Origin: an uncultured Bacteroidota bacterium
GTDB taxonomy: Bacteria > Bacteroidota > Bacteroidia > Flavobacteriales > Flavobacteriaceae
NCBI GenBank assembly: GCA_902613595.1
Contig: CACMHY010000001.1
Coordinates: 744,001-808,000 of the forward strand
Direction of reading: 5' to 3'
DNA: 64,000 nucleotides
Made by a program: the position numbers and the translations under genes. Below the pieces are notes generated by a model, which saw only the letters and a list, made by a program, of their open reading frames with translations, was not told the origin of the DNA and did not search any database. Of the stretch, positions 14,703 to 22,715 are shown piece by piece; the stretch's first letter is position 1; the number at the start of each line of letters is the position of its first letter.

Positions 14703-15188
14703 ATGAAAAAGATTATTTACTTTTTATTAATAGTATTAGTAATAAGTGCTTGCGGAAATTCAAAGGCTTCAGAAAAAGAAAAAACTAATAAAACAGAACA
14801 AAAATCTGAAGACGAATTAAGCACAAATATTATCATTAACTCAAATGATACAATGAAGTTTGATAAGAAAATCTTACTAGTCCCGGCTGGAAAGAAAATT
14901 ACATTAACTCTAAATCATACTGGTAAGTTTCCTAAAGTTGGAATGGGTCATAATTTTGTGCTCTTAAAAGCTGATACCAACGTGAGTGAATTTGCTGAGA
15001 AAGCAGCTATGGCAAGGAAAACAGATTATATCCCTGAGGGTGACCAAACTATTGCTTATACAAAGCTTCTGGGGGGAGGAGAAAGTGATACCATAATCTT
15101 TGAGGCGCCAAAAAAAGGGTATTATACTTTTTTATGTACATTCCCGGGTCACTGGCAATTAATGAGAGGTAAGTTAATAGTAAAATAA
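14703..15188 (+). CDS. Azurin-type blue copper lipoprotein
   Basis: A 161-residue lipoprotein: a signal peptide with lipobox ending at C17 (VISAC), a charged Lys/Glu linker to about residue 40, then a cupredoxin domain. The type-1 copper ligands are present: H83 in GMGHNF, C145, H150 and M154. The C-x4-H-x3-M spacing is identical to that of Pseudomonas azurin. It is a periplasm-facing one-electron carrier. Its end lies 4 bp from the end of the GMC small-subunit gene on the other strand, so neighbourhood (not co-transcription) hints it could receive electrons from that flavoprotein. Confidence 0.9.
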   Translation: MKKIIYFLLIVLVISACGNSKASEKEKTNKTEQKSEDELSTNIIINSNDTMKFDKKILLVPAGKKITLTLNHTGKFPKVGMGHNFVLLKADTNVSEFAEKAAMARKTDYIPEGDQTIAYTKLLGGGESDTIIFEAPKKGYYTFLCTFPGHWQLMRGKLIVK

Positions 15189-15192
15189 AATT

Positions 15193-15807
15193 CTAAAGTG
15201 CCCAAACTTTTCCTCCGGTTGCTTCTTTAAGGTCAATACAGCCATAATATTTCCCCGGCACAGGTAAATATTCCATTTCATTCTTTGCTATGAACTCATT
15301 TATCCTGAAGGACATAACCGTAAAATCTCTTAGTTTTTTTATAAATGTATATTCCAAAATATTTTCATTTAATACTGAATTTCTACCATTTTTTAAATCA
15401 TCTTCAAAATCTGAAATCATATCATCATATTTGTCTACAAGGTTGTCATCTATTTTAAGATATTTATCTAGTAGTCCTTTAAGACTTTTTTCATCAACTA
15501 TTTGAATATTTTTTTTGCATATGTCTAGACCTTTTAAAAAATTTTCTTTTTCCTTTTTATATAAAACCTCTTCAATGTAGACATCAATAAACTTATTTAA
15601 ATTCAAATCGATTGCTCCAGGGGTATCGGTTCTAGGAATAATAATATCAATGATACTTGATATAAATTCAAATTGTTCATTGTTAAATGATAATAATTTG
15701 TTTGAATTATTTTTTTGACAACTTTCAAAAATACTTAGGATAGTTGGAGGCAATGTTGTGATTCCAATTGTTGCTCCCAAGTTTTTCAATGCTTTTCTTC
15801 TATTCAT
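15193..15807 (-). CDS. Gluconate 2-dehydrogenase subunit 3-like protein (GMC small subunit)
   Basis: A 204-residue protein with an N-terminal twin-arginine-type signal (NRRKALKNLG plus a hydrophobic stretch, residues 2-30). The body matches the gluconate 2-dehydrogenase subunit 3 family (FISSIIDIIIPRTDTPGA, then a helical region). These small subunits accompany membrane or periplasmic GMC flavoprotein dehydrogenases and carry the Tat signal used to export the complex. It lies 24 bp downstream of the GMC gene, in the expected order for a sugar or glucoside dehydrogenase. No cytochrome c subunit gene follows, since azurin is convergent next door. Confidence 0.85.
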   Translation of the reverse strand: MNRRKALKNLGATIGITTLPPTILSIFESCQKNNSNKLLSFNNEQFEFISSIIDIIIPRTDTPGAIDLNLNKFIDVYIEEVLYKKEKENFLKGLDICKKNIQIVDEKSLKGLLDKYLKIDDNLVDKYDDMISDFEDDLKNGRNSVLNENILEYTFIKKLRDFTVMSFRINEFIAKNEMEYLPVPGKYYGCIDLKEATGGKVWAL

Positions 15808-15831
15808 ACTTATTTCAGTAATAATTTGTTT

Positions 15832-17517
15832 CTATAAATTCATTTTTTTTAATTCTTCTACAGCATAATTTGCTGCTCTTGCAGTCAATGCCATGTAAGT
15901 TAGCGAGGGATTTACATTACTTGCAGATGTCATTGCAGATCCATCGGTGACAAAAACATTTGGAACATCATGGATCTGATTGTGTCTATTTAAAACAGAT
16001 GTTTTAGGGTCTTTTCCCATCCTGGCAGTGCCCATCTCATGAATTCCTAAACCAATAGCATAATCTCTGTCATAACCTTCAACATCTTTAAATCCAGCAG
16101 CATCTAACATTTCTAATGCCTGTTGCTGCATATCTTTTCTCATATTGAGTTCGTTTTCTTTTATAGTTGCATCAAATGTCACGGTTGGTAATCCCCATTT
16201 ATCGAGTTTGCTGTAATCCAAAGTCATTCTGTTTTGTTCGTAAGGTAATACTTCACCGAAGCCTCCCAAACTAATTTTCCACTCCCCCGGTTTTAAAATT
16301 TCTTCTTTAAATACAGCCCCATATTCGGCAATATTTGATGTCCATCCATTTCTAGAGCCTCCTCCTTGGTAACCATATCCTCGCAGAAAATCCTTTCTAT
16401 TTGTTTTTCCACCTATATTTCTAAAACGTGGAATATAAATTCCATTATTCCTTTTACCCAAATAGTATCTATCATTAAATTCTTCGGTGGAAGCTGATGC
16501 ACCGACGCCTAGGTGGTGATCCATAATGTTCCTTCCAAGCTGATCAGATCTGTTACCCATACCATTTGGGAAAGAATCAGATTTTGATTGCATCAAAATT
16601 GAGGTTGATGGAATAGAAGAAGCACATAAAAAAATTATTTTCGCATTAAAATTGTAGACTTCTTTAGTTTCTGAATCAATCACTTCGACTCCTGTTGCTC
16701 TTCTTTTCTCTTTATCATAAACAATTTTGTGAACTATAGAATTAGTTTTTAAAGTCAAGTTTCCTGTGCTTTCGGCTGCAGGTAGAGTTGAGGAGTTACT
16801 ACTAAAATAAGAAGCATATGGGCATCCCCTTCTACACCGGCCTCTATATTGGCAAGCAACTCTCCCAAGGCCTGGTTTGGTCCCTTCGGTTATTATAGCT
16901 GTCCTACCTATCGTAAGTATTCGATCGTTATAGTTTTTAGCTAATGAGGACTGTAATTGTTTTTCTACACAATTTAGTTCCATTGGTTTTAAATAATTTC
17001 CGTCAGGAAATTGGGGTAGCCCAACATTTTCTCCACTTACTCCAATATACCCTTCAACATAATCATACCAAGGTGCAATATCTTTATATCTAATTGGCCA
17101 ATCAACAGCAACTCCTTCCTTCACATTTGCCTCAAAATCATAATCTGTCAAGCGGTAAGACTGTCTACCCCATGTAAGGGATCTCCCTCCAACGTGGTAG
17201 CCTCTCATCCAATCAAATCTATTTGTTTCATTGTATGGATGCTCTATATCATTGACAAAAAAATGCTTGCTCGACTCGATTGTTGTATAGCCTGTTCTGC
17301 TCTGTTTGCCTTGAACTCTCCTTGTTTCTTTTGTAATAATATCTCCTGTTTTGTAGTCCCATGGATCGTCATACATTGTGGGATAATCCTCTATGTGCCT
17401 GACCATGTGTCCTCTTTCTAAAACTAAAGTTTTTAAACCTTTTTCACAGAGCTCTTTAGCTGCCCAACCACCGCTTATTCCTGTCCCTACGACAATTGCA
17501 TCAAATTTGGTTTCCAT
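15832..17517 (-). CDS. GMC-family FAD-dependent sugar/glucoside dehydrogenase, large subunit
   Basis: A 561-residue glucose-methanol-choline oxidoreductase. The FAD-binding GTGISGG is at 11-17, GMC signature 1 is around HVGGRSLTWGR (108-118), and the C-terminal catalytic region includes HEMGTARMG and SNVNPSLT. A cysteine cluster C222-x5-C228-x3-C232-P resembles the iron-sulfur region reported for FAD-dependent hexose dehydrogenases. It has no signal peptide, so it probably rides through Tat with the small subunit encoded directly downstream. Related two- or three-subunit enzymes oxidise C1 of glucose or C3 of glucosides; the neighbouring DUF1080 and TIM-barrel genes favour C3 oxidation. That substrate call is inference. 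Confidence 0.88.
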   Translation of the reverse strand: METKFDAIVVGTGISGGWAAKELCEKGLKTLVLERGHMVRHIEDYPTMYDDPWDYKTGDIITKETRRVQGKQSRTGYTTIESSKHFFVNDIEHPYNETNRFDWMRGYHVGGRSLTWGRQSYRLTDYDFEANVKEGVAVDWPIRYKDIAPWYDYVEGYIGVSGENVGLPQFPDGNYLKPMELNCVEKQLQSSLAKNYNDRILTIGRTAIITEGTKPGLGRVACQYRGRCRRGCPYASYFSSNSSTLPAAESTGNLTLKTNSIVHKIVYDKEKRRATGVEVIDSETKEVYNFNAKIIFLCASSIPSTSILMQSKSDSFPNGMGNRSDQLGRNIMDHHLGVGASASTEEFNDRYYLGKRNNGIYIPRFRNIGGKTNRKDFLRGYGYQGGGSRNGWTSNIAEYGAVFKEEILKPGEWKISLGGFGEVLPYEQNRMTLDYSKLDKWGLPTVTFDATIKENELNMRKDMQQQALEMLDAAGFKDVEGYDRDYAIGLGIHEMGTARMGKDPKTSVLNRHNQIHDVPNVFVTDGSAMTSASNVNPSLTYMALTARAANYAVEELKKMNL

Positions 17518-17543
17518 AAATTGAAAGTACTTATTCTTTGTAA

Positions 17544-17576
17544 GTGATCAAATATATATAATTTCTTCCGTGATCA
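17544..17576. promoter_or_regulatory. GMC promoter bracketed by two GTGATCA sites
   Basis: Two identical GTGATCA words (17544-17550 and 17570-17576) lie 26 bp apart in the 106 bp divergent spacer. On the minus strand the -7 box TATATTTG (17549-17556) overlaps the first. The second falls where the -33 element should be. This looks like a regulated promoter for the GMC gene and possibly the divergent carbohydrate operon. Confidence 0.45.
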
Positions 17577-17623
17577 TTATATTTTATATAAATTTAAGTC
17601 AATAAATAAAACAAATAAAACGA

Positions 17624-18583
17624 ATGAATTTAAATAATTTAACTAAAACTACTTTATTGATTTTTTGTTTTTTGAGTCAATTCTCGTGTAAAAATGAAAT
17701 TAAAGCTCAGACCTCAAACCAGGAAACATTTTTTAAGACTTCTTTAGCCCAATGGTCTATACATAAATCTATATGGGAAGGTAAAGTGTCTCCGTATGAC
17801 TTTGCAAAAATTGCACATGATTTAGGTTTTGAAGGATTAGAATATGTAAACGCTTTATATTCAGATGTAACAGGAAGTCAAGACAAAGCATCTGCAATAG
17901 AAGAGTTTATTACAAGAAACAATGAGCTCGCTGCTAAGTATAATTTGAAAAATGTTCTTATTATGATTGACGGTGAAGGTAATTTAGCAAGTTCCAGTAT
18001 AGAAGAAAGAAAGTTGGCTGTGGAAAACCACAAAACTTGGATTGAGGCTGCTAGTAAAATGAATTGTTCAGCGATAAGAGTAAATCTTAAAGGAGAAAAA
18101 GAAATAGAAAATTGGATTAAATATTCAGTAGAAAGTCTTAAAGCGCTGGCAAAATACGCTAAACCTATGAACATAAATGTAATTGTTGAAAATCATGGAG
18201 GATTATCATCCAATGCAAGTTTAGTAATGAAAGTTATAAATCAGGTGAATTTAGAAAATTGTGGAACTTTACCAGATTTTGGGAACTTTTGTATGAGTGA
18301 GGGTTATGGAGCTTTAAGGGACAGAAATTGTAGGGATTTATACGACCCTTATTTAGGGATTTCAGAAATGTTGCCCAGAGCATTTGGTCTGAGTGCAAAA
18401 TCATATGAATTTGATTCTAATGGAGATGAAACTGTCTTAGACTACTATAAGCTATTATCAATTGCGAAAGATGCCGGATATACCGGATATATTGGTGTAG
18501 AATATGAAGGAAACAAGCTCTCAGAAATAGACGGTATAATTGCAACAAAAAAATTATTGGAAAAAGCAGCTTCTAAAATTTAA
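17624..18583 (+). CDS. TIM-barrel sugar isomerase/epimerase-like lipoprotein
   Basis: A 319-residue xylose isomerase-like TIM barrel (AP endonuclease family 2 fold). The N-terminus is a lipoprotein signal (cysteine in QFSCK at about 22), so the protein is probably anchored in the periplasm or outer membrane, unlike the cytoplasmic second copy downstream. Likely metal ligands are in VIVENHGG, LPDFGNF and the terminal GVEYEG. Proteins of this family next to DUF1080 and Gfo/Idh genes act on oxidised (3-keto) sugars as epimerases or eliminases. First gene of the plus-strand operon, 3 bp before the permease. Confidence 0.8.
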   Translation: MNLNNLTKTTLLIFCFLSQFSCKNEIKAQTSNQETFFKTSLAQWSIHKSIWEGKVSPYDFAKIAHDLGFEGLEYVNALYSDVTGSQDKASAIEEFITRNNELAAKYNLKNVLIMIDGEGNLASSSIEERKLAVENHKTWIEAASKMNCSAIRVNLKGEKEIENWIKYSVESLKALAKYAKPMNINVIVENHGGLSSNASLVMKVINQVNLENCGTLPDFGNFCMSEGYGALRDRNCRDLYDPYLGISEMLPRAFGLSAKSYEFDSNGDETVLDYYKLLSIAKDAGYTGYIGVEYEGNKLSEIDGIIATKKLLEKAASKI

Positions 18584-18585
18584 AG

Positions 18586-19797
18586 ATGGCCCTGCTTAAG
18601 CGTATCCAACTTTCATTACTTTTTTTCCTTGAATTTTTTATTTGGGGAGGTTGGTTTGTCACAATGGGTACATTTCTTTCTCAAGAATTTCAGGCATCCG
18701 GTGGGCAACTTGCACTAGCCTATGAAACGCAATCTATAGGTGCCATAATTGCTCCTTTTGTTATTGGATTAATTGCAGATCGCTATTTTGAAGCTCAGAA
18801 AATTTTAGGTATTCTTCACATTATGGGTGCATTATTATTGTATGTTGCCAGCAACTCTAGCGATTTTTCAAATTTTTATCCTTACATTTTTATCTATATG
18901 CTTTTGTATATGCCCACATTAGCCTTATCGAATTCCGTGGCATTTCACCAAATGGAAGACCCGTCAAAACAATTTGCGTCAATCAGAGTTTTAGGAAGCG
19001 TAGGTTGGATAGTAGCTGGATTAGTAATTGGTTTCTTTGCATGGGAAGGAAACCAAACATTAAAATATTCTTTTTACATGTCCTCAGCTGCGTCTGCCCT
19101 ACTAGGGCTTTATTGTTTTACTCTCCCTAATACGCCTCCAAAATTAGCTGCTAACAAAAGAATGTCTTATCGTGAAATTTTGGGTATTGATGCTTTGTCT
19201 ATGCTAAAAGACAGAGGGTTTTTGTTCTTCTTTATTGCATCAATTCTTATTTGTATCCCCTTAGCATTTTATTATCAACATGCTAATCAGTTTTTAAATG
19301 AAATAGGGATGAAAGCGGCTGCCTCGAAAATGGTTTTTGGACAAATTTCAGAAGTACTGTTCTTACTTCTACTTCCTGTTTTTATTAAAAGATATGGAAT
19401 TAAAAATGCATTGATTGTGGGTATTTTAGCTTGGGGTTTACGCTATATTTTGTTTGCATATGGAAATGTGGGAAGCCAAGCATGGATGTTAATTTTTGGA
19501 ATCATTCTTCACGGTGTATGCTATGATTTCTTTTTTGTTTCAGGCCAAATATATACTGACTTCAAAGCTGGTGAAAAATATAAAAGTACTGCCCAAGGAC
19601 TAATTACTCTGGCTACTTATGGACTTGGTATGCTTATAGGATTTCGATTTGCAGGATGGTTAACAGACCAATATGTAACTGATTCAGGGCATCTATGGAA
19701 GAATATATGGGTTCAACCTGCTATTTTTTCGTTTGTTGTCTTAACTTTATTTTTATTCTTATTTAAAAAAGAAACAATTAAAATTAAAACAGTATGA
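18586..19797 (+). CDS. MFS permease, NupG/nucleoside:H+ symporter-like
   Basis: A 403-residue major facilitator with twelve predicted helices. The N-terminal signature of the NupG/XapB group is clear (FFLEFFIWGGWFVTMGTF), as are the loop GLIADRYF and the late helix motif FFVSGQIYTD. Bacterial homologues outside enterobacteria frequently sit in sugar clusters with Gfo/Idh and DUF1080 genes. Import of the oxidised sugar or glycoside is therefore as plausible as nucleoside uptake. The stop overlaps the start of the next gene by 4 bp (ATGA). Confidence 0.83.
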   Translation: MALLKRIQLSLLFFLEFFIWGGWFVTMGTFLSQEFQASGGQLALAYETQSIGAIIAPFVIGLIADRYFEAQKILGILHIMGALLLYVASNSSDFSNFYPYIFIYMLLYMPTLALSNSVAFHQMEDPSKQFASIRVLGSVGWIVAGLVIGFFAWEGNQTLKYSFYMSSAASALLGLYCFTLPNTPPKLAANKRMSYREILGIDALSMLKDRGFLFFFIASILICIPLAFYYQHANQFLNEIGMKAAASKMVFGQISEVLFLLLLPVFIKRYGIKNALIVGILAWGLRYILFAYGNVGSQAWMLIFGIILHGVCYDFFFVSGQIYTDFKAGEKYKSTAQGLITLATYGLGMLIGFRFAGWLTDQYVTDSGHLWKNIWVQPAIFSFVVLTLFLFLFKKETIKIKTV

Positions 19798-20933
19798 GTA
19801 AAATTAAGCTAGGAATATTAGGTGGGGGTGGAGACTCTTTAATTGGTGTATTACATCGTGTTGCTTCAAATATGTATGATCGCTATCAAATAGTTGGAGG
19901 CGTGTTTAATCCCAATTATGAAGAAAATATAAAATTTGCCAAAAAGATTGGTTTAGATACTAAAAGGGTTTACATTGACTTTGACACTTTTGTGGAGGAA
20001 GAAATAAAAAAACCTATTGAAGAACGTATTGAAGTAGTTTCTGTTCTTACTCCAAATTTTTTGCATTTCCCAATGGCAAAGAAGTTGCTAGAAAATGGTT
20101 TTAACGTTATCTGTGAAAAACCTTTAACTACTTCATATGATGAGGCCGTTGAGCTAGAGACACTTCAAAAGAGGAACAAATTAATATTTGCTGTAACTTA
20201 TACCTACACGGGCTACCCCATGGTTAGGCATATGAAACATATGATAGCCTCAGGTGCAATAGGTGAGATCCAAAAAATAGATGTTCAATACTATCAAGGA
20301 TGGATCAATCCCGTTATTCATGATCCTGAGATAAGAAAAAATGTTTGGCGTCTGGATCCAAAAAAAGCAGGAATTAGTTCATGTATTGGTGATATTGGAA
20401 CCCACGCATTTCAGATGACTGAGTATTTAACAGGTATGGAAGTAAAATACATACTTTCAGATCTAAATATGCTATATGATGACAATGAATTAGATTTAGA
20501 CGGCACAGTTCTTATTCGTTTTTCTGAAAAAGTAAAAGGAGTAATTCGTGCCAGCCAAATTGCTACAGGAGAAGAAAATGGATTAACGGTAGCAGTTTAT
20601 GGTAAAAAAGGAGCTTTCAAGTGGGAGCAAGAAAATCCAAATATACTGTATCACATCACTGATGATCAGCCAAAAAGAATAATTAAACCTGGTCATGCTT
20701 ACGTCTCTGAAGTTGCAGCAGACGGAACAAAACTTCCTGGCGGGCATCCCGAGGGAATCTTTGACGCTATGGGTAATATCTATAAAGGTGTTGCTAAGGC
20801 TCTCAGAAATGAGACTGCATTTGACGGAGAGTATCCCACAATGAATGATGGTGTCAGGGGCATGTTATTTATAGAAAAAGTTGTTGAATCGCATAAAAAT
20901 GGAAATATATGGCTAAGCTTGGAAAGAACATGA
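19794..20933 (+). CDS. Gfo/Idh/MocA family oxidoreductase
   Basis: A 379-residue NAD(P)-dependent dehydrogenase. It has an N-terminal Rossmann fold (GILGGGGDSLIGVLHRV), the EKP motif (ICEKPLTTS, about 108-116), and a C-terminal alpha/beta domain with the conserved histidine region GDIGTHAFQM. Such enzymes interconvert hydroxyl and keto groups on sugars. In a 3-keto-sugar route it would reduce or oxidise C3 in the cytoplasm. It is coupled to both neighbours by 4-bp ATGA overlaps, so permease, dehydrogenase and TIM-barrel protein are made together. Confidence 0.87.
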   Translation: MSKIKLGILGGGGDSLIGVLHRVASNMYDRYQIVGGVFNPNYEENIKFAKKIGLDTKRVYIDFDTFVEEEIKKPIEERIEVVSVLTPNFLHFPMAKKLLENGFNVICEKPLTTSYDEAVELETLQKRNKLIFAVTYTYTGYPMVRHMKHMIASGAIGEIQKIDVQYYQGWINPVIHDPEIRKNVWRLDPKKAGISSCIGDIGTHAFQMTEYLTGMEVKYILSDLNMLYDDNELDLDGTVLIRFSEKVKGVIRASQIATGEENGLTVAVYGKKGAFKWEQENPNILYHITDDQPKRIIKPGHAYVSEVAADGTKLPGGHPEGIFDAMGNIYKGVAKALRNETAFDGEYPTMNDGVRGMLFIEKVVESHKNGNIWLSLERT

Positions 20934-21982
20934 AAACAGTTAAGGGGCCTGGAATTTTTCTTGCCCAATTTGTCGATAGTAAAGCCCCTTTTAACTCTCT
21001 AGAAGGGATGTGTAAATGGGCCTCTGATCTGGGGTACAAAGGAATTCAAATCCCTACATGGGAATCATTTCTTATTGATTTAGATAAAGCAGCTGAAAGC
21101 AAAACATACTGTGACGAACTTAAAGGAAATATAAATTCTTTTGGATTAGAAATCACGGAACTTTCAACTCATCTACAAGGTCAACTAGTTGCTGTTCATC
21201 CAGCTTACGATTTAATGTTTGACAATTTCGCACCAGACACTGTGAAAAATAATCCCAAGGCTAGGACAGCTTGGGCAGTAGAGACTATGAAAAAAGCAGC
21301 AAAAGCAAGCAAGAACCTCGGATTAAAAACTCATGCGACTTTCTCAGGTGCCTTACTCTGGCATACTTGGCATCCATGGCCTCAAAGGCCTGAAGGACTT
21401 GTGGAACTTGGATTCGCTGAGTTAGCAAAAAGATGGATCCCTATTTTAGATATATATGATGAAAATGGGGTCGACGTTTGTTACGAAATTCATCCTGGTG
21501 AGGACCTTCATGATGGTGTTACATTTGAACGTTTTCTTGAAGCAACAAATAAACACAAGAGAGTAAATATTTTATATGATCCAAGTCATTTTGTTTTACA
21601 ACAGCTTGATTATATTGAGTATATTGATCACTACCATGAGTTTATTAAATCATTTCATGTAAAAGATTCTGAGTTTAAACCAACAGGCAAAAAAGGTGCC
21701 TTCGGAGGTTATGGTGATTGGATTGACCGTGCAGGACGTTATCGTTCCCCAGGAGACGGCCAAATTGACTTCAAATCTATATTTACTAAACTTACTGAAT
21801 ATGGTTGCGACGTATGGGCTGTAATGGAATGGGAATGTTGTATCAAAAGTCCTGATCAAGGAGCTAGAGAAGGTGCTCCCTTTATTAAAAATCATATAAT
21901 TGAGGCTACTCAAAAGACTTTCGATGATTTTGCAGGAGGTAAAATCGATGAACAGCTATTAAAAAATATTTTACACTTATAA
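20930..21982 (+). CDS. Cytoplasmic TIM-barrel sugar isomerase/epimerase-like protein
   Basis: A 350-residue xylose isomerase-like TIM barrel with no signal peptide. Putative metal ligands are Glu in CYEIHPGED, Asp/His in LYDPSHFV, the HVKDSE segment and the C-terminal Glu in VMEWEC, the usual E-D/H-H-E arrangement. The frame opens at 20909, but I take the ATG at 20930 because it forms an ATGA overlap with the stop of the Gfo/Idh gene. It differs from the lipoprotein TIM barrel at 17624 in being longer and cytoplasmic. The role is probably isomerisation or elimination on a keto-sugar intermediate; the exact reaction is unknown. Confidence 0.85.
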   Translation: MKTVKGPGIFLAQFVDSKAPFNSLEGMCKWASDLGYKGIQIPTWESFLIDLDKAAESKTYCDELKGNINSFGLEITELSTHLQGQLVAVHPAYDLMFDNFAPDTVKNNPKARTAWAVETMKKAAKASKNLGLKTHATFSGALLWHTWHPWPQRPEGLVELGFAELAKRWIPILDIYDENGVDVCYEIHPGEDLHDGVTFERFLEATNKHKRVNILYDPSHFVLQQLDYIEYIDHYHEFIKSFHVKDSEFKPTGKKGAFGGYGDWIDRAGRYRSPGDGQIDFKSIFTKLTEYGCDVWAVMEWECCIKSPDQGAREGAPFIKNHIIEATQKTFDDFAGGKIDEQLLKNILHL

Positions 21983-21986
21983 ATCC

Positions 21987-22715
21987 ATGAAAAATATTGT
22001 TGCCTTTTTACTAATAATGTTTTTGTTTTTAAGTAATGAAAATAATAATGAATACTTTATTCATGAAAATACCAACAATTGGGAATCTCTTTTTGATGGT
22101 AAAACTTTAAAAGGTTGGCATCGCTATAATCGCAAAGGCGTTAAGCCTGTATGGACTGTAAAAAAAGGAGTTCTTACCTTTGACCCTAATTTGGTCCCTG
22201 AAGGAGACTATGTCCACGCACTTGTAACAGATAAAATTTTCAAAAGTTTTCAACTTTCGATAGAATGGAATATTTCAGAAGGTGGAAACAGTGGAATTTT
22301 TTGGGGGGTTCAAGAAGATGAAAATCTTAGCAAACCTTATCTTACAGCCCCAGAGATACAAATTATTGACAACGAAAGGCATCCCGATGCTAAAGATAAA
22401 CCAAAATTCCATCAAGCGGGTGCAGTTTATGATCTTGTCGAGCCTAATATAGAGGTTTGTAAGCCTGCTGGTCAATGGAACCATTTTTTATTGACTATAG
22501 ATCACGGTATCAACAAGGGAAGCGTGAAACTTAACGGAACCCAAATTCTGGAATTCCCATTAAGTGGTGATAAATGGGAATCAATAATTGCAAATTCGAA
22601 ATTTCGTGACGAATGTGAGTACAAAAAATTTGCTAAACTAAAATCAGGAAAAATAGGTTTACAGGATCATGGAAATAAAGTATCATTCAGAAACATAAGG
22701 ATTAGGAGACTATAA
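21987..22715 (+). CDS. DUF1080 (3-keto-disaccharide hydrolase family) protein
   Basis: A 242-residue exported protein: hydrophobic signal (1-16), then a concanavalin-like beta sandwich with DUF1080 hallmarks (WESLFDGKTLKGWHRY, NSGIFWGVQED, PEIQIIDNERHPD, GKIGLQDHGN). DUF1080 members have been associated with hydrolysis or eliminative cleavage of 3-keto-glycosides and with hydration of glycal intermediates. It follows the TIM-barrel gene by 4 bp and closes the carbohydrate cluster. No lipobox cysteine is seen, so it is probably soluble in the periplasm. Confidence 0.85.
   Translation: MKNIVAFLLIMFLFLSNENNNEYFIHENTNNWESLFDGKTLKGWHRYNRKGVKPVWTVKKGVLTFDPNLVPEGDYVHALVTDKIFKSFQLSIEWNISEGGNSGIFWGVQEDENLSKPYLTAPEIQIIDNERHPDAKDKPKFHQAGAVYDLVEPNIEVCKPAGQWNHFLLTIDHGINKGSVKLNGTQILEFPLSGDKWESIIANSKFRDECEYKKFAKLKSGKIGLQDHGNKVSFRNIRIRRL

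Follow-up and report, generated by a model that had tools for sequence, protein, structure and literature searches.

Seven genes lie together in the window (the whole 64,000-nucleotide stretch of DNA analysed), in two groups that diverge from an intergenic gap of 106 bp. On the minus strand are a Gluconate_2-dh3 small subunit with a Tat-type leader (15193..15807; PF13618, E 5.6e-16) and a GMC flavoprotein dehydrogenase (15832..17517; PF05199 and PF00732). On the plus strand the order is a lipoprotein TIM barrel of the AP_endonuc_2 family, termed lipoTIM here (17624..18583; PF01261, E 5e-21), a NupG-type MFS permease (18586..19797; PF03825, E 8.2e-109), a Gfo/Idh/MocA oxidoreductase (19794..20933; PF01408, PF22725 and PF02894), a cytoplasmic TIM barrel also of AP_endonuc_2, termed HYD (20930..21982), and a DUF1080 (3keto-disac_hyd) protein (21987..22715; PF06439, E 7.8e-44, 150.4 bits against a cut-off of 26.8). 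With all seven ORFs intact, and each protein above the curated Pfam cut-off for its family, the divergent arrangement described in an earlier note on this DNA, a GMC pair facing an operon of TIM barrel, permease, Gfo, TIM barrel and DUF1080, is confirmed. The ORF caller's start for HYD is 20909, but since MKT.KGP is where its solved match, 8ro4, and the majority of homologues start, the true start is probably 20930, which gives a 4-bp overlap with the Gfo gene. Convergent with the Gluconate_2-dh3 gene is one for an azurin-like cupredoxin lipoprotein (14703..15188, plus strand; NCBIfam TIGR02695, 109.5 bits, cut-off 105.1).

Compartments were assigned by inspection of leaders (N-terminal extension, Cys, RR), because a hydrophobicity score alone is unfit as an export test: it also flagged 31/60 hydratases, 9/62 Gfo proteins and 58/61 GMC proteins, which we attribute to the first beta strand being hydrophobic. 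LipoTIM has a hydrophobic leader ending in SC. The Gluconate_2-dh3 N-terminus carries the twin-arginine stretch MNRRKALKNLG, and 58/59 homologues have RR somewhere in their first 42 residues (the one exception is a broken ORF); this partner is proposed to carry the GMC subunit, which has no N-terminal extension, out of the cytoplasm. Neither the Gfo protein nor HYD has a leader, the match of HYD to 8ro4 beginning at MKT. Exported-type leaders recur among relatives.

Chance grouping can be dismissed, since the other genes recur at loci picked by lipoTIM only. At 80 loci so collected, some of them cut by contig ends, Gfo is near lipoTIM in 62, GMC in 61, the hydratase in 60, Gluconate_2-dh3 in 59, NupG in 58 and DUF1080 in 55, the last count rising to 61 with a profile search. 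As a control, eight BLAST queries gave no match in nine twenty-kilobase stretches of the window's own genome chosen regardless of these families, and the DUF1080 profile also gave none there. In eleven further stretches, selected because they carry DUF1080 or TIM genes, matches were scattered (6/11 by BLAST), and two divergent DUF1080 genes among them were missed by BLAST and found by profile.

Among 149 genomes of the family, lipoTIM is present in 72 and the hydratase in 71; both occur in 68, neither in 74 and one only in seven (4 and 3), and where both occur they are within 15 kb of each other in 64 of the 68. The phi coefficient is 0.91 for lipoTIM with HYD and 0.88 for lipoTIM with GMC, and DUF1080 is found in 71/71 HYD genomes and 76/77 GMC genomes. 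Three of the 149 have the hydratase, GMC and DUF1080 with no lipoTIM match, so that lipoTIM is not needed in every case. Loci L077 and L078, from one lineage, keep lipoTIM, Gfo and HYD, with DUF1080 absent from the locus and present elsewhere in the genome; L042, L049 and L062 keep lipoTIM and DUF1080, and HYD is not found in the genome. Both patterns fit lipoTIM as a lyase with two alternative hydratases. All five genomes tested in which the locus lacks a BLAST DUF1080 match have DUF1080 somewhere, and a divergent copy lies inside locus L067 (13931-14809, minus strand), by profile and Pfam. In Pseudoalteromonas and Hymenobacter, GMC, Gluconate_2-dh3, HYD and DUF1080 stay together. Among cultivable relatives, Maribacter spongiicola (L054) is one that has the cluster.

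For the cytoplasmic half the pertinent match is that of HYD to 8ro4, '2-hydroxy-3-keto-glucal hydratase' (E 6.9e-162, residues 8-354 of the longer ORF), which is of orthologue grade at the level of sequence. HYD is also 64% identical to a protein of Agrobacterium T29 and 68% to one of Pseudoalteromonas; its match to IolE is distant (E 9.6e-10). Inside the cell it would convert imported glucal to 3-keto-glucose by hydration. The Gfo protein shares 37% identity (384 columns) with the Gfo adjoining the hydratase in Agrobacterium sp. T29, matches 3v5n with E 4.8e-87, and scores 96.5 bits against NCBIfam LevoglcsnDh, with its cut-off of 650. A BT2158-type identity for it is rejected (NCBIfam BT_2158_fam, 29.7 bits versus a cut-off of 750). 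It is proposed to be a cytoplasmic 3-keto-glucose reductase, which would yield glucose, as has been proposed for the Gfo of A. tumefaciens (PMC10628242). The permease, which scores 365 bits with TIGR00889, below the cut-off of 446, is proposed to import 3-keto-glucose and/or 2-hydroxy-3-keto-glucal.

The DUF1080 protein has 8rr2, '3-keto-glycoside eliminase/hydratase', at Foldseek rank 1, and its nearest solved relatives include, by title, 8rr2 and 9fbe, with that name, and 8tda and 8v31 (3-keto-2-hydroxy-glucal-hydratase). To judge by these matches it is a member of the exported 3-keto-glycoside eliminase/hydratase family (8RR2, 9FBE, 8TDA). The structures 8tcd, 8tcr, 8tcs and 8tct we take to be 3-keto-glucoside lyases; a 2024 Angewandte paper reportedly deals with A. 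tumefaciens and B. theta lyases, and a 2024 Nature paper is said to deal with B. theta. In the QDHG motif Q226, D227 and H228 are invariant in 30/30. The B. theta enzyme bearing H275N is presumably BT2157. H275 is the His needed for hydration (PMC13273386), and H228 is equated with it on no more than a count of 15 residues back from the C-terminus (4hxc, the homologue from B. uniformis; BT2157, 290 aa).

Attention is drawn to lipoTIM, for whose AlphaFold2 model (pLDDT 91.5) Foldseek gives 4ovx at the top and C-glycoside deglycosidases at all of ranks 2-16. By profile search the five best after 4ovx are also C-glycoside deglycosidases (E 7e-14 to 3e-9), followed by a mixture (Art22 3e-8, three deglycosidases 1e-7 to 6e-6, IolI 4e-6); a point against the comparison is that in most deglycosidases the best-scoring stretch is in the C-terminal part. 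By both approaches the nearest characterised relatives are deglycosidase alpha subunits (PuCGD/DgpC, AgCGD2), whose metal ligands are Glu147, Asp179, His269, Lys271 and Glu305 (Mori et al. 2021, PMC8563793). In 81 lipoTIM sequences E189, H191, D218, S257, K259 and E293 are invariant (81/81) and E295 is present in 80/81. Six of the seven deglycosidase active-site residues are present: the base His and its partner Glu (AgCGD2 H149 and E307) are matched by H191 and E295, H191 aligning with PuCGE His143 in the profile alignment, and E189, D218, K259 and E293 stand at metal-ligand positions. The ligand set is incomplete, however, with Ser257 in all 81 sequences at the position of His269, and with that substitution deglycosidase chemistry is possibly not performed. 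Further differences from the deglycosidases are that lipoTIM is exported and that no beta-subunit gene is identified beside it, general Pfam models placing every other operon gene in another family. LipoTIM is an uncharacterised exported enzyme with an unusual active site, and from its sequence relatives we infer that it is most likely a lyase, a 3-keto-glycoside beta-eliminase. An AtOGE identity is rejected, its profile not reaching 8bvk at E <= 1; 8ro4 is not reached at that limit either. The exported TIM barrel of the Pseudoalteromonas cluster is of AtOGE type, that of a proven lyase (8bvk, E 1.1e-12), and has a Sec-type leader; the same kind of cluster in Hymenobacter includes TIMs of AtOGE type whose leaders are of Tat type.

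In the earlier note HYD was called a soluble paralogue of lipoTIM, the two perhaps performing the same step on either side of the membrane, which in present terms would be hydration of 2-hydroxy-3-keto-glucal by both. They do belong to one Pfam family, and the signature E-x-H, D, K, E-x-E is found, complete with the His, in HYD too; being common to both, it cannot separate lyase from hydratase. The genomes with lipoTIM and DUF1080 and no detectable HYD (G002, G003, G005) also accord with such duplication. However, close paralogy is rejected, since BLASTP between the two finds no similarity (best E 2.5) and hhalign a remote alignment only (probability 1.3, E 0.039, 247 columns), and their nearest solved relatives differ. 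The near-constant co-inheritance across the 149 genomes is more readily explained by two successive steps than by redundant enzymes, an exported hydratase family is already there in DUF1080, and the exported slot in Pseudoalteromonas and Hymenobacter is held by an AtOGE-type TIM, a lyase type. Hydration by lipoTIM and HYD alike is consequently unlikely. The step apparently encoded twice seems to be hydration, with DUF1080 outside and HYD inside, and lipoTIM would be the eliminase.

A different type of possibility is that lipoTIM is a periplasmic 3-keto-sugar epimerase or isomerase, YcjR-like, that lets the pathway accept more substrates, in which case DUF1080 would be the lyase. Its Foldseek neighbours also include UlaE, Art22, D-tagatose 3-epimerase and, at rank 50, YcjR (3-keto-D-glucoside 4-epimerase), and two genes of the Caulobacter cluster were named 'sugar epimerases' (Price et al. 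2022, PMC9007349). With VIA-align, which is too flat among TIM barrels for function assignment, the Art22 isomerase (Z 29.8) and the D-tagatose 3-epimerase-like 3wqo (27.5) are over the deglycosidases (24.8-26.8), and epimerases and xylose isomerases, at about 25, are hardly under them. (Neither 8bvk nor 8ro4 is among the 50 VIA-align matches listed, which carries no weight.) What makes the epimerase reading doubtful is that deglycosidases come first after 4ovx by both sequence profile and Foldseek, and that L077 and L078 keep lipoTIM with Gfo and HYD where DUF1080 is not in the locus, though it is elsewhere in the genome. Beta-elimination by lipoTIM remains the favored assignment.

For the GMC protein a role as glycoside 3-dehydrogenase is suggested, with the C3 regiochemistry coming from gene context. 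Its best solved matches, at only E 4e-35, are fructose and glucose dehydrogenases, which act on free sugars, and among the solved GMC matches none is named as 3-specific. That the pair instead oxidises free sugars or polyols (at C1, C2 or C5) and the operon serves another keto-sugar or cyclitol, as those matches and the distant similarity of HYD to IolE would allow, is very improbable in the face of the far better match of HYD to 8ro4, the presence of DUF1080 in all HYD genomes and all but one of the GMC genomes, and the four genes kept together in Pseudoalteromonas and Hymenobacter. In L042 a BT2158-like oxidoreductase is in place of GMC. As electron acceptor for the GMC dehydrogenase, the azurin-like cupredoxin is a possible candidate. 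A homologue is near Gluconate_2-dh3 in 32 of the 80 loci (within 500 bp in 28 of these) and divergent from lipoTIM in 4 further loci; 27 loci that do have Gluconate_2-dh3 give no azurin match. The LacABC of Caulobacter crescentus, likened here by its published description, has three components, the third being a c-type cytochrome, and the Hymenobacter cluster has a c-type cytochrome, whereas no open frame of at least 80 aa in the 64-kb window contains a CxxCH motif, the azurin-like gene adjoining instead.

The pathway type is already known and is not new as a whole (PMC9007349, PMC10628242). A four-step glycoside pathway was described by Bitter et al. 2023 (PMC10628242), and Price et al. 2022 reported periplasmic LacABC and DUF1080 alongside a transporter, a pair of 'epimerases' and a reductase; similar clusters occur in Bacteroidetes, and lactose users such as Indibacter and Algoriphagus are reported to have related ones (PMC9007349). 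The A. tumefaciens locus (GlycDH with a TAT protein, AtOGE, AtHYD and Gfo; PMC10628242) has a common plan with the window: GMC with a Tat-signal partner, TIM lyase (in the window a candidate), TIM hydratase of AtHYD type and a Gfo homologue, the presumed reductase. The window differs in adding an exported DUF1080 and in that lipoTIM is of a subfamily other than the AtOGE-type lyase and is an exported lipoprotein. In a related Agrobacterium locus (L106) the OGE-type protein lacks a leader and adjoins an ABC importer, where the window has a NupG-like one. B. thetaiotaomicron BT2156-BT2160 also has a DUF1080 homologue, BT2157 (solved as 3osd), and an exported oxidation step, BT2158 being called a periplasmic glycoside 3-dehydrogenase (PMC11300592); oxidation in the window is assigned to GMC and not to a BT2158-type Gfo. 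The levoglucosan pathway of Bacillus smithii (LgdA/B1/B2/C) has oxidation, elimination, hydration and reduction by four enzymes (PMC7676230), and at the pathway level the step order is common to both, the substrate there being an anhydrosugar.

Taken as a whole mechanism, the locus is read as a non-hydrolytic glycoside deglycosylation pathway divided by the inner membrane, to which we give a probability of roughly 0.57. The corresponding proposal of the earlier note, 3-keto-glycoside oxidation, elimination and hydration split across the membrane, is supported by the HYD orthologue, the DUF1080 family match, the leaders in relatives and co-occurrence in the 149 genomes. The Tat-exported GMC flavoprotein and Gluconate_2-dh3 pair would oxidise the C3 hydroxyl of a glycoside outside, the electrons being taken up by a carrier in the periplasm, perhaps the neighboring azurin. 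LipoTIM would then remove the aglycone by beta-elimination across C1 and C2, leaving 2-hydroxy-3-keto-glucal, which exported DUF1080, perhaps itself also able to cleave 3-keto-glycosides, would hydrate. The permease would bring in 3-keto-glucose and/or the glucal for HYD and the Gfo reductase, the sugar being presumably glucose. A bolder version is put forward tentatively, and could well be wrong: that lipoTIM founds a family of exported 3-keto-glycoside beta-eliminases in which the base His is kept and a metal-ligand His has become an invariant Ser, with electron exit by a cupredoxin and with unrelated enzymes hydrating the reactive glucal on the two sides, DUF1080 outside and HYD inside. If the two-sided hydration is true, the cell would recover product whichever side of the membrane it was released on.

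The seven-gene set is common in marine flavobacteria, and most likely these cut sugar bonds by prior oxidation outside the inner membrane and finish the job in the cell. Roughly one in two of the family's sampled genomes has the key genes, which points to a mainstream mode of glycoside cleavage, one concealed by annotations such as 'sugar phosphate isomerase' and 'nucleoside permease'. Were the exported lyase, its altered metal site and the electron carrier identified, the periplasmic half would become testable with seven genes.

All seven open reading frames claimed by the earlier note are present where it placed them, each family assignment being confirmed by Pfam. The minus-strand pair of Gluconate_2-dh3 small subunit (15193-15807) and GMC dehydrogenase (15832-17517) diverges, across a gap of 106 bp, from five plus-strand genes that overlap or have less than 5 bp between neighbours: the lipoprotein TIM barrel, here lipoTIM (17624-18583), NupG (18586-19797), Gfo (19794-20933), the cytoplasmic TIM barrel, here the hydratase (20930-21982), and DUF1080 (21987-22715). 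The assembly of the host genome, whose close kin are uncultured marine Bacteroidetes/Flavobacteriaceae, is 1.90 Mb in 24 contigs and 85.3% complete; among relatives fetched with lipoTIM, the nearest locus (L009) has a 96% identical copy. This genome has eight DUF1080 matches, three GMC genes at E <= 1e-120 and fourteen AP_endonuc_2 matches, 13 of them above cut-off, and some relatives' genomes have 15-20 DUF1080 matches each. The type of pathway, with C3 oxidation, elimination, hydration and reduction of glycosides, is already published, given the Caulobacter cluster of LacABC and periplasmic DUF1080 described by Price et al. 2022 (PMC9007349), where a transporter, two epimerases and a reductase are important on lactose; the same source places similar clusters in Bacteroidetes. 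A second own-genome locus (L112 4006-10134, at about 202-208 kb of contig C1) has GMC, Gluconate_2-dh3, DUF1080 and a Gfo with a GFO_IDH_MocA_C2 domain, and its adjoining PfkB kinase and KDPG aldolase suggest a variant of the pathway for uronates or sugar acids.

In the best 80 of 135 relatives' loci fetched with lipoTIM as query, a set biased toward its near relatives, partners were sought up to 9 kb to each side at E <= 1e-8. Gfo was found in 62, GMC in 61, the hydratase in 60, Gluconate_2-dh3 in 59, NupG in 58, DUF1080 in 55 (61 with the DUF1080 profile) and an azurin-like gene in 36, all lower bounds because contig ends interrupt several loci. Neither BLAST nor the DUF1080 profile had a match in nine 20-kb own-genome stretches picked blind to these families; among 11 picked for DUF1080 or TIM genes, six gave scattered BLAST matches, the profile adding DUF1080 in two others. 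Across 149 family genomes, nearly one per genus (GMC at E <= 1e-120, DUF1080 at E <= 1e-15, one weak hydratase match excluded), lipoTIM is present in 72, the hydratase in 71, GMC in 77 and DUF1080 in 88. LipoTIM and hydratase occur together in 68, lipoTIM alone in four, hydratase alone in three and neither in 74 (phi 0.91), and are at most 15 kb apart in 64 of the 68; lipoTIM and GMC are together in 70 (phi 0.88), with Fisher p-values overstating independence since the genomes are related. DUF1080 is somewhere in every genome bearing lipoTIM or hydratase. The three hydratase genomes without a lipoTIM match have both GMC and DUF1080, so lipoTIM can be dispensed with in some genomes.

On the exported side, twin arginines are within the first 42 residues of 58 of 59 Gluconate_2-dh3 homologues. 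The closest solved relatives of the window GMC are fructose and glucose dehydrogenases, and its proposed role as C3 oxidase of glycosides is drawn from gene context. No CxxCH motif occurs in open frames of at least 80 aa in the 64-kb window, and a candidate electron acceptor in place of cytochrome c is an azurin-like lipoprotein (14703-15188), convergent with and adjoining the small-subunit gene. Azurin is beside that gene in 32 of the 80 loci (28 within 500 bp, four at 2.6-2.8 kb); in four more (L069, L072, L074, L076) it diverges from lipoTIM, hydratase and DUF1080, no GMC match being found in the locus. It is not universal, as no azurin match was found in 27 loci that have Gluconate_2-dh3. 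DUF1080 has a strongly hydrophobic leader in 52 of 55 BLAST-found homologues, the others being truncated or ambiguous. Its model best matches 8rr2, closely followed by 9fbe (both titled 3-keto-glycoside eliminase/hydratase), with 8tda and 8v31 (3-keto-2-hydroxy-glucal-hydratase) also near, amid entries titled putative glycosyl or sugar hydrolase. For the B. theta enzyme, Kastner et al. 2026 (PMC13273386) report an H275N variant, H275 being needed for hydration; the invariant His228 (QDHG) of the window protein is probably its counterpart, counting from the C-terminus.

In the cytoplasm, the hydratase matches 8ro4, named 2-hydroxy-3-keto-glucal hydratase, over nearly its full length (E 6.9e-162) from MKT; as 8ro4 and most homologues begin at that Met, its start is probably 20930, the ORF caller's 20909 being 21 bases too early. 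Gfo is 37% identical to the Gfo that Agrobacterium sp. T29 encodes beside its homologous hydratase. According to preliminary evidence in Bitter et al. 2023 (PMC10628242), HYD of A. tumefaciens turns 2-hydroxy-3-keto-glucal by hydration into 3-keto-glucose, which Gfo of that operon would reduce to glucose.

There remains lipoTIM. The N-terminus of each of the 80 homologues is extended and includes a hydrophobic stretch whose 9-residue mean is 1.2 or more (1.8 or more in 55); there is a Cys at positions 12-42 in 64, RR in 23 and a loose Tat pattern in 46. From these leader features the family seems to be exported, through Sec in the clade of the window and through Tat in many other clades. Foldseek of its AlphaFold2 model (pLDDT 91.5) ranks first 4ovx (43% identity, no assigned function), then C-glycoside deglycosidases at ranks 2-16. 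The profile search gives, after 4ovx, five deglycosidases (E 7e-14 to 3e-9), Art22 (3e-8), then deglycosidases (1e-7, 5e-7, 6e-6) interspersed with IolI (4e-6), mostly best aligned in the C-terminal part; 8ro4 and 8bvk are both absent at E <= 1. VIA-align is less clear on kinship, scoring Art22 (29.8) and 3wqo (27.5) above deglycosidases (24.8-26.8), with epimerases, the activity that one rival reading would give lipoTIM, at about 25. A search of open-access literature by pathway terms found no function for the 4ovx/lipoTIM family, a weak negative. In AgCGD2, according to Mori et al. 2021 (PMC8563793), the metal residues are E147, D179, H269, K271 and E305, the base is H149 and its partner is E307; the lipoTIM equivalents are E189, D218, S257, K259, E293, H191 and E295. 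Unlike AgCGD2, lipoTIM thus has Ser at the position of metal residue His269; all 81 sequences carry it, as do both own-genome paralogues and 4ovx. The hydratase keeps the whole signature, H-x-K included, in 18 of 18 sequences, so the signature alone cannot tell a lyase from the rival reading of lipoTIM as a hydratase.

We infer, by analogy and from locus content, that lipoTIM would be the lyase of the pathway. In Pseudoalteromonas sp. CF6-2, a run of Gfo, hydratase, MFS, DUF1080, GMC, Gluconate_2-dh3 and TIM fills the same functional slots as the window, its exported TIM, with a Sec-type leader, being of the type of Agrobacterium tumefaciens AtOGE (8bvk, E 1.1e-12), a proven 3-keto-glucoside eliminase. 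Hymenobacter volaticus has consecutive GMC, Gluconate_2-dh3, nucleoside permease, Gfo, hydratase, c-type cytochrome, two AtOGE-type TIMs with Tat-type leaders, and DUF1080. Two Sporocytophaga assemblies of one lineage (L077, L078) have lipoTIM, Gfo and hydratase in a locus where DUF1080 was not found, each genome having one elsewhere; L042, L049 and L062 keep lipoTIM and DUF1080, no hydratase being found in their genomes. Both patterns make sense if lipoTIM is the lyase and hydration can fall to either DUF1080 or the TIM hydratase, and the near-constant joint inheritance of lipoTIM and hydratase suits consecutive steps. Other arrangements include that of Flavobacterium zepuense (L067, 6461-14809), with a GH1 glycosidase and glycosyltransferase ahead of lipoTIM-NupG-Gfo-hydratase, a convergent DUF1080 of divergent sequence downstream and no GMC match found in the locus; that of Lutimonas (L042 8872-14584), where a BT2158-like oxidoreductase and two DUF1080 genes accompany lipoTIM and Gfo, again with GMC not found; and six loci (L053, L054, L056, L058, L065, L075) with a second GMC, about 61-63% identical to the window's, between Gfo and hydratase on the opposite strand. 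On this reading, the idea in the earlier note that two TIM-barrel paralogues carry out the same step on both sides of the inner membrane would hold for hydration and fail in its choice of actors: with lipoTIM as lyase, hydration would be by DUF1080 outside and by the TIM barrel inside, two unrelated folds.
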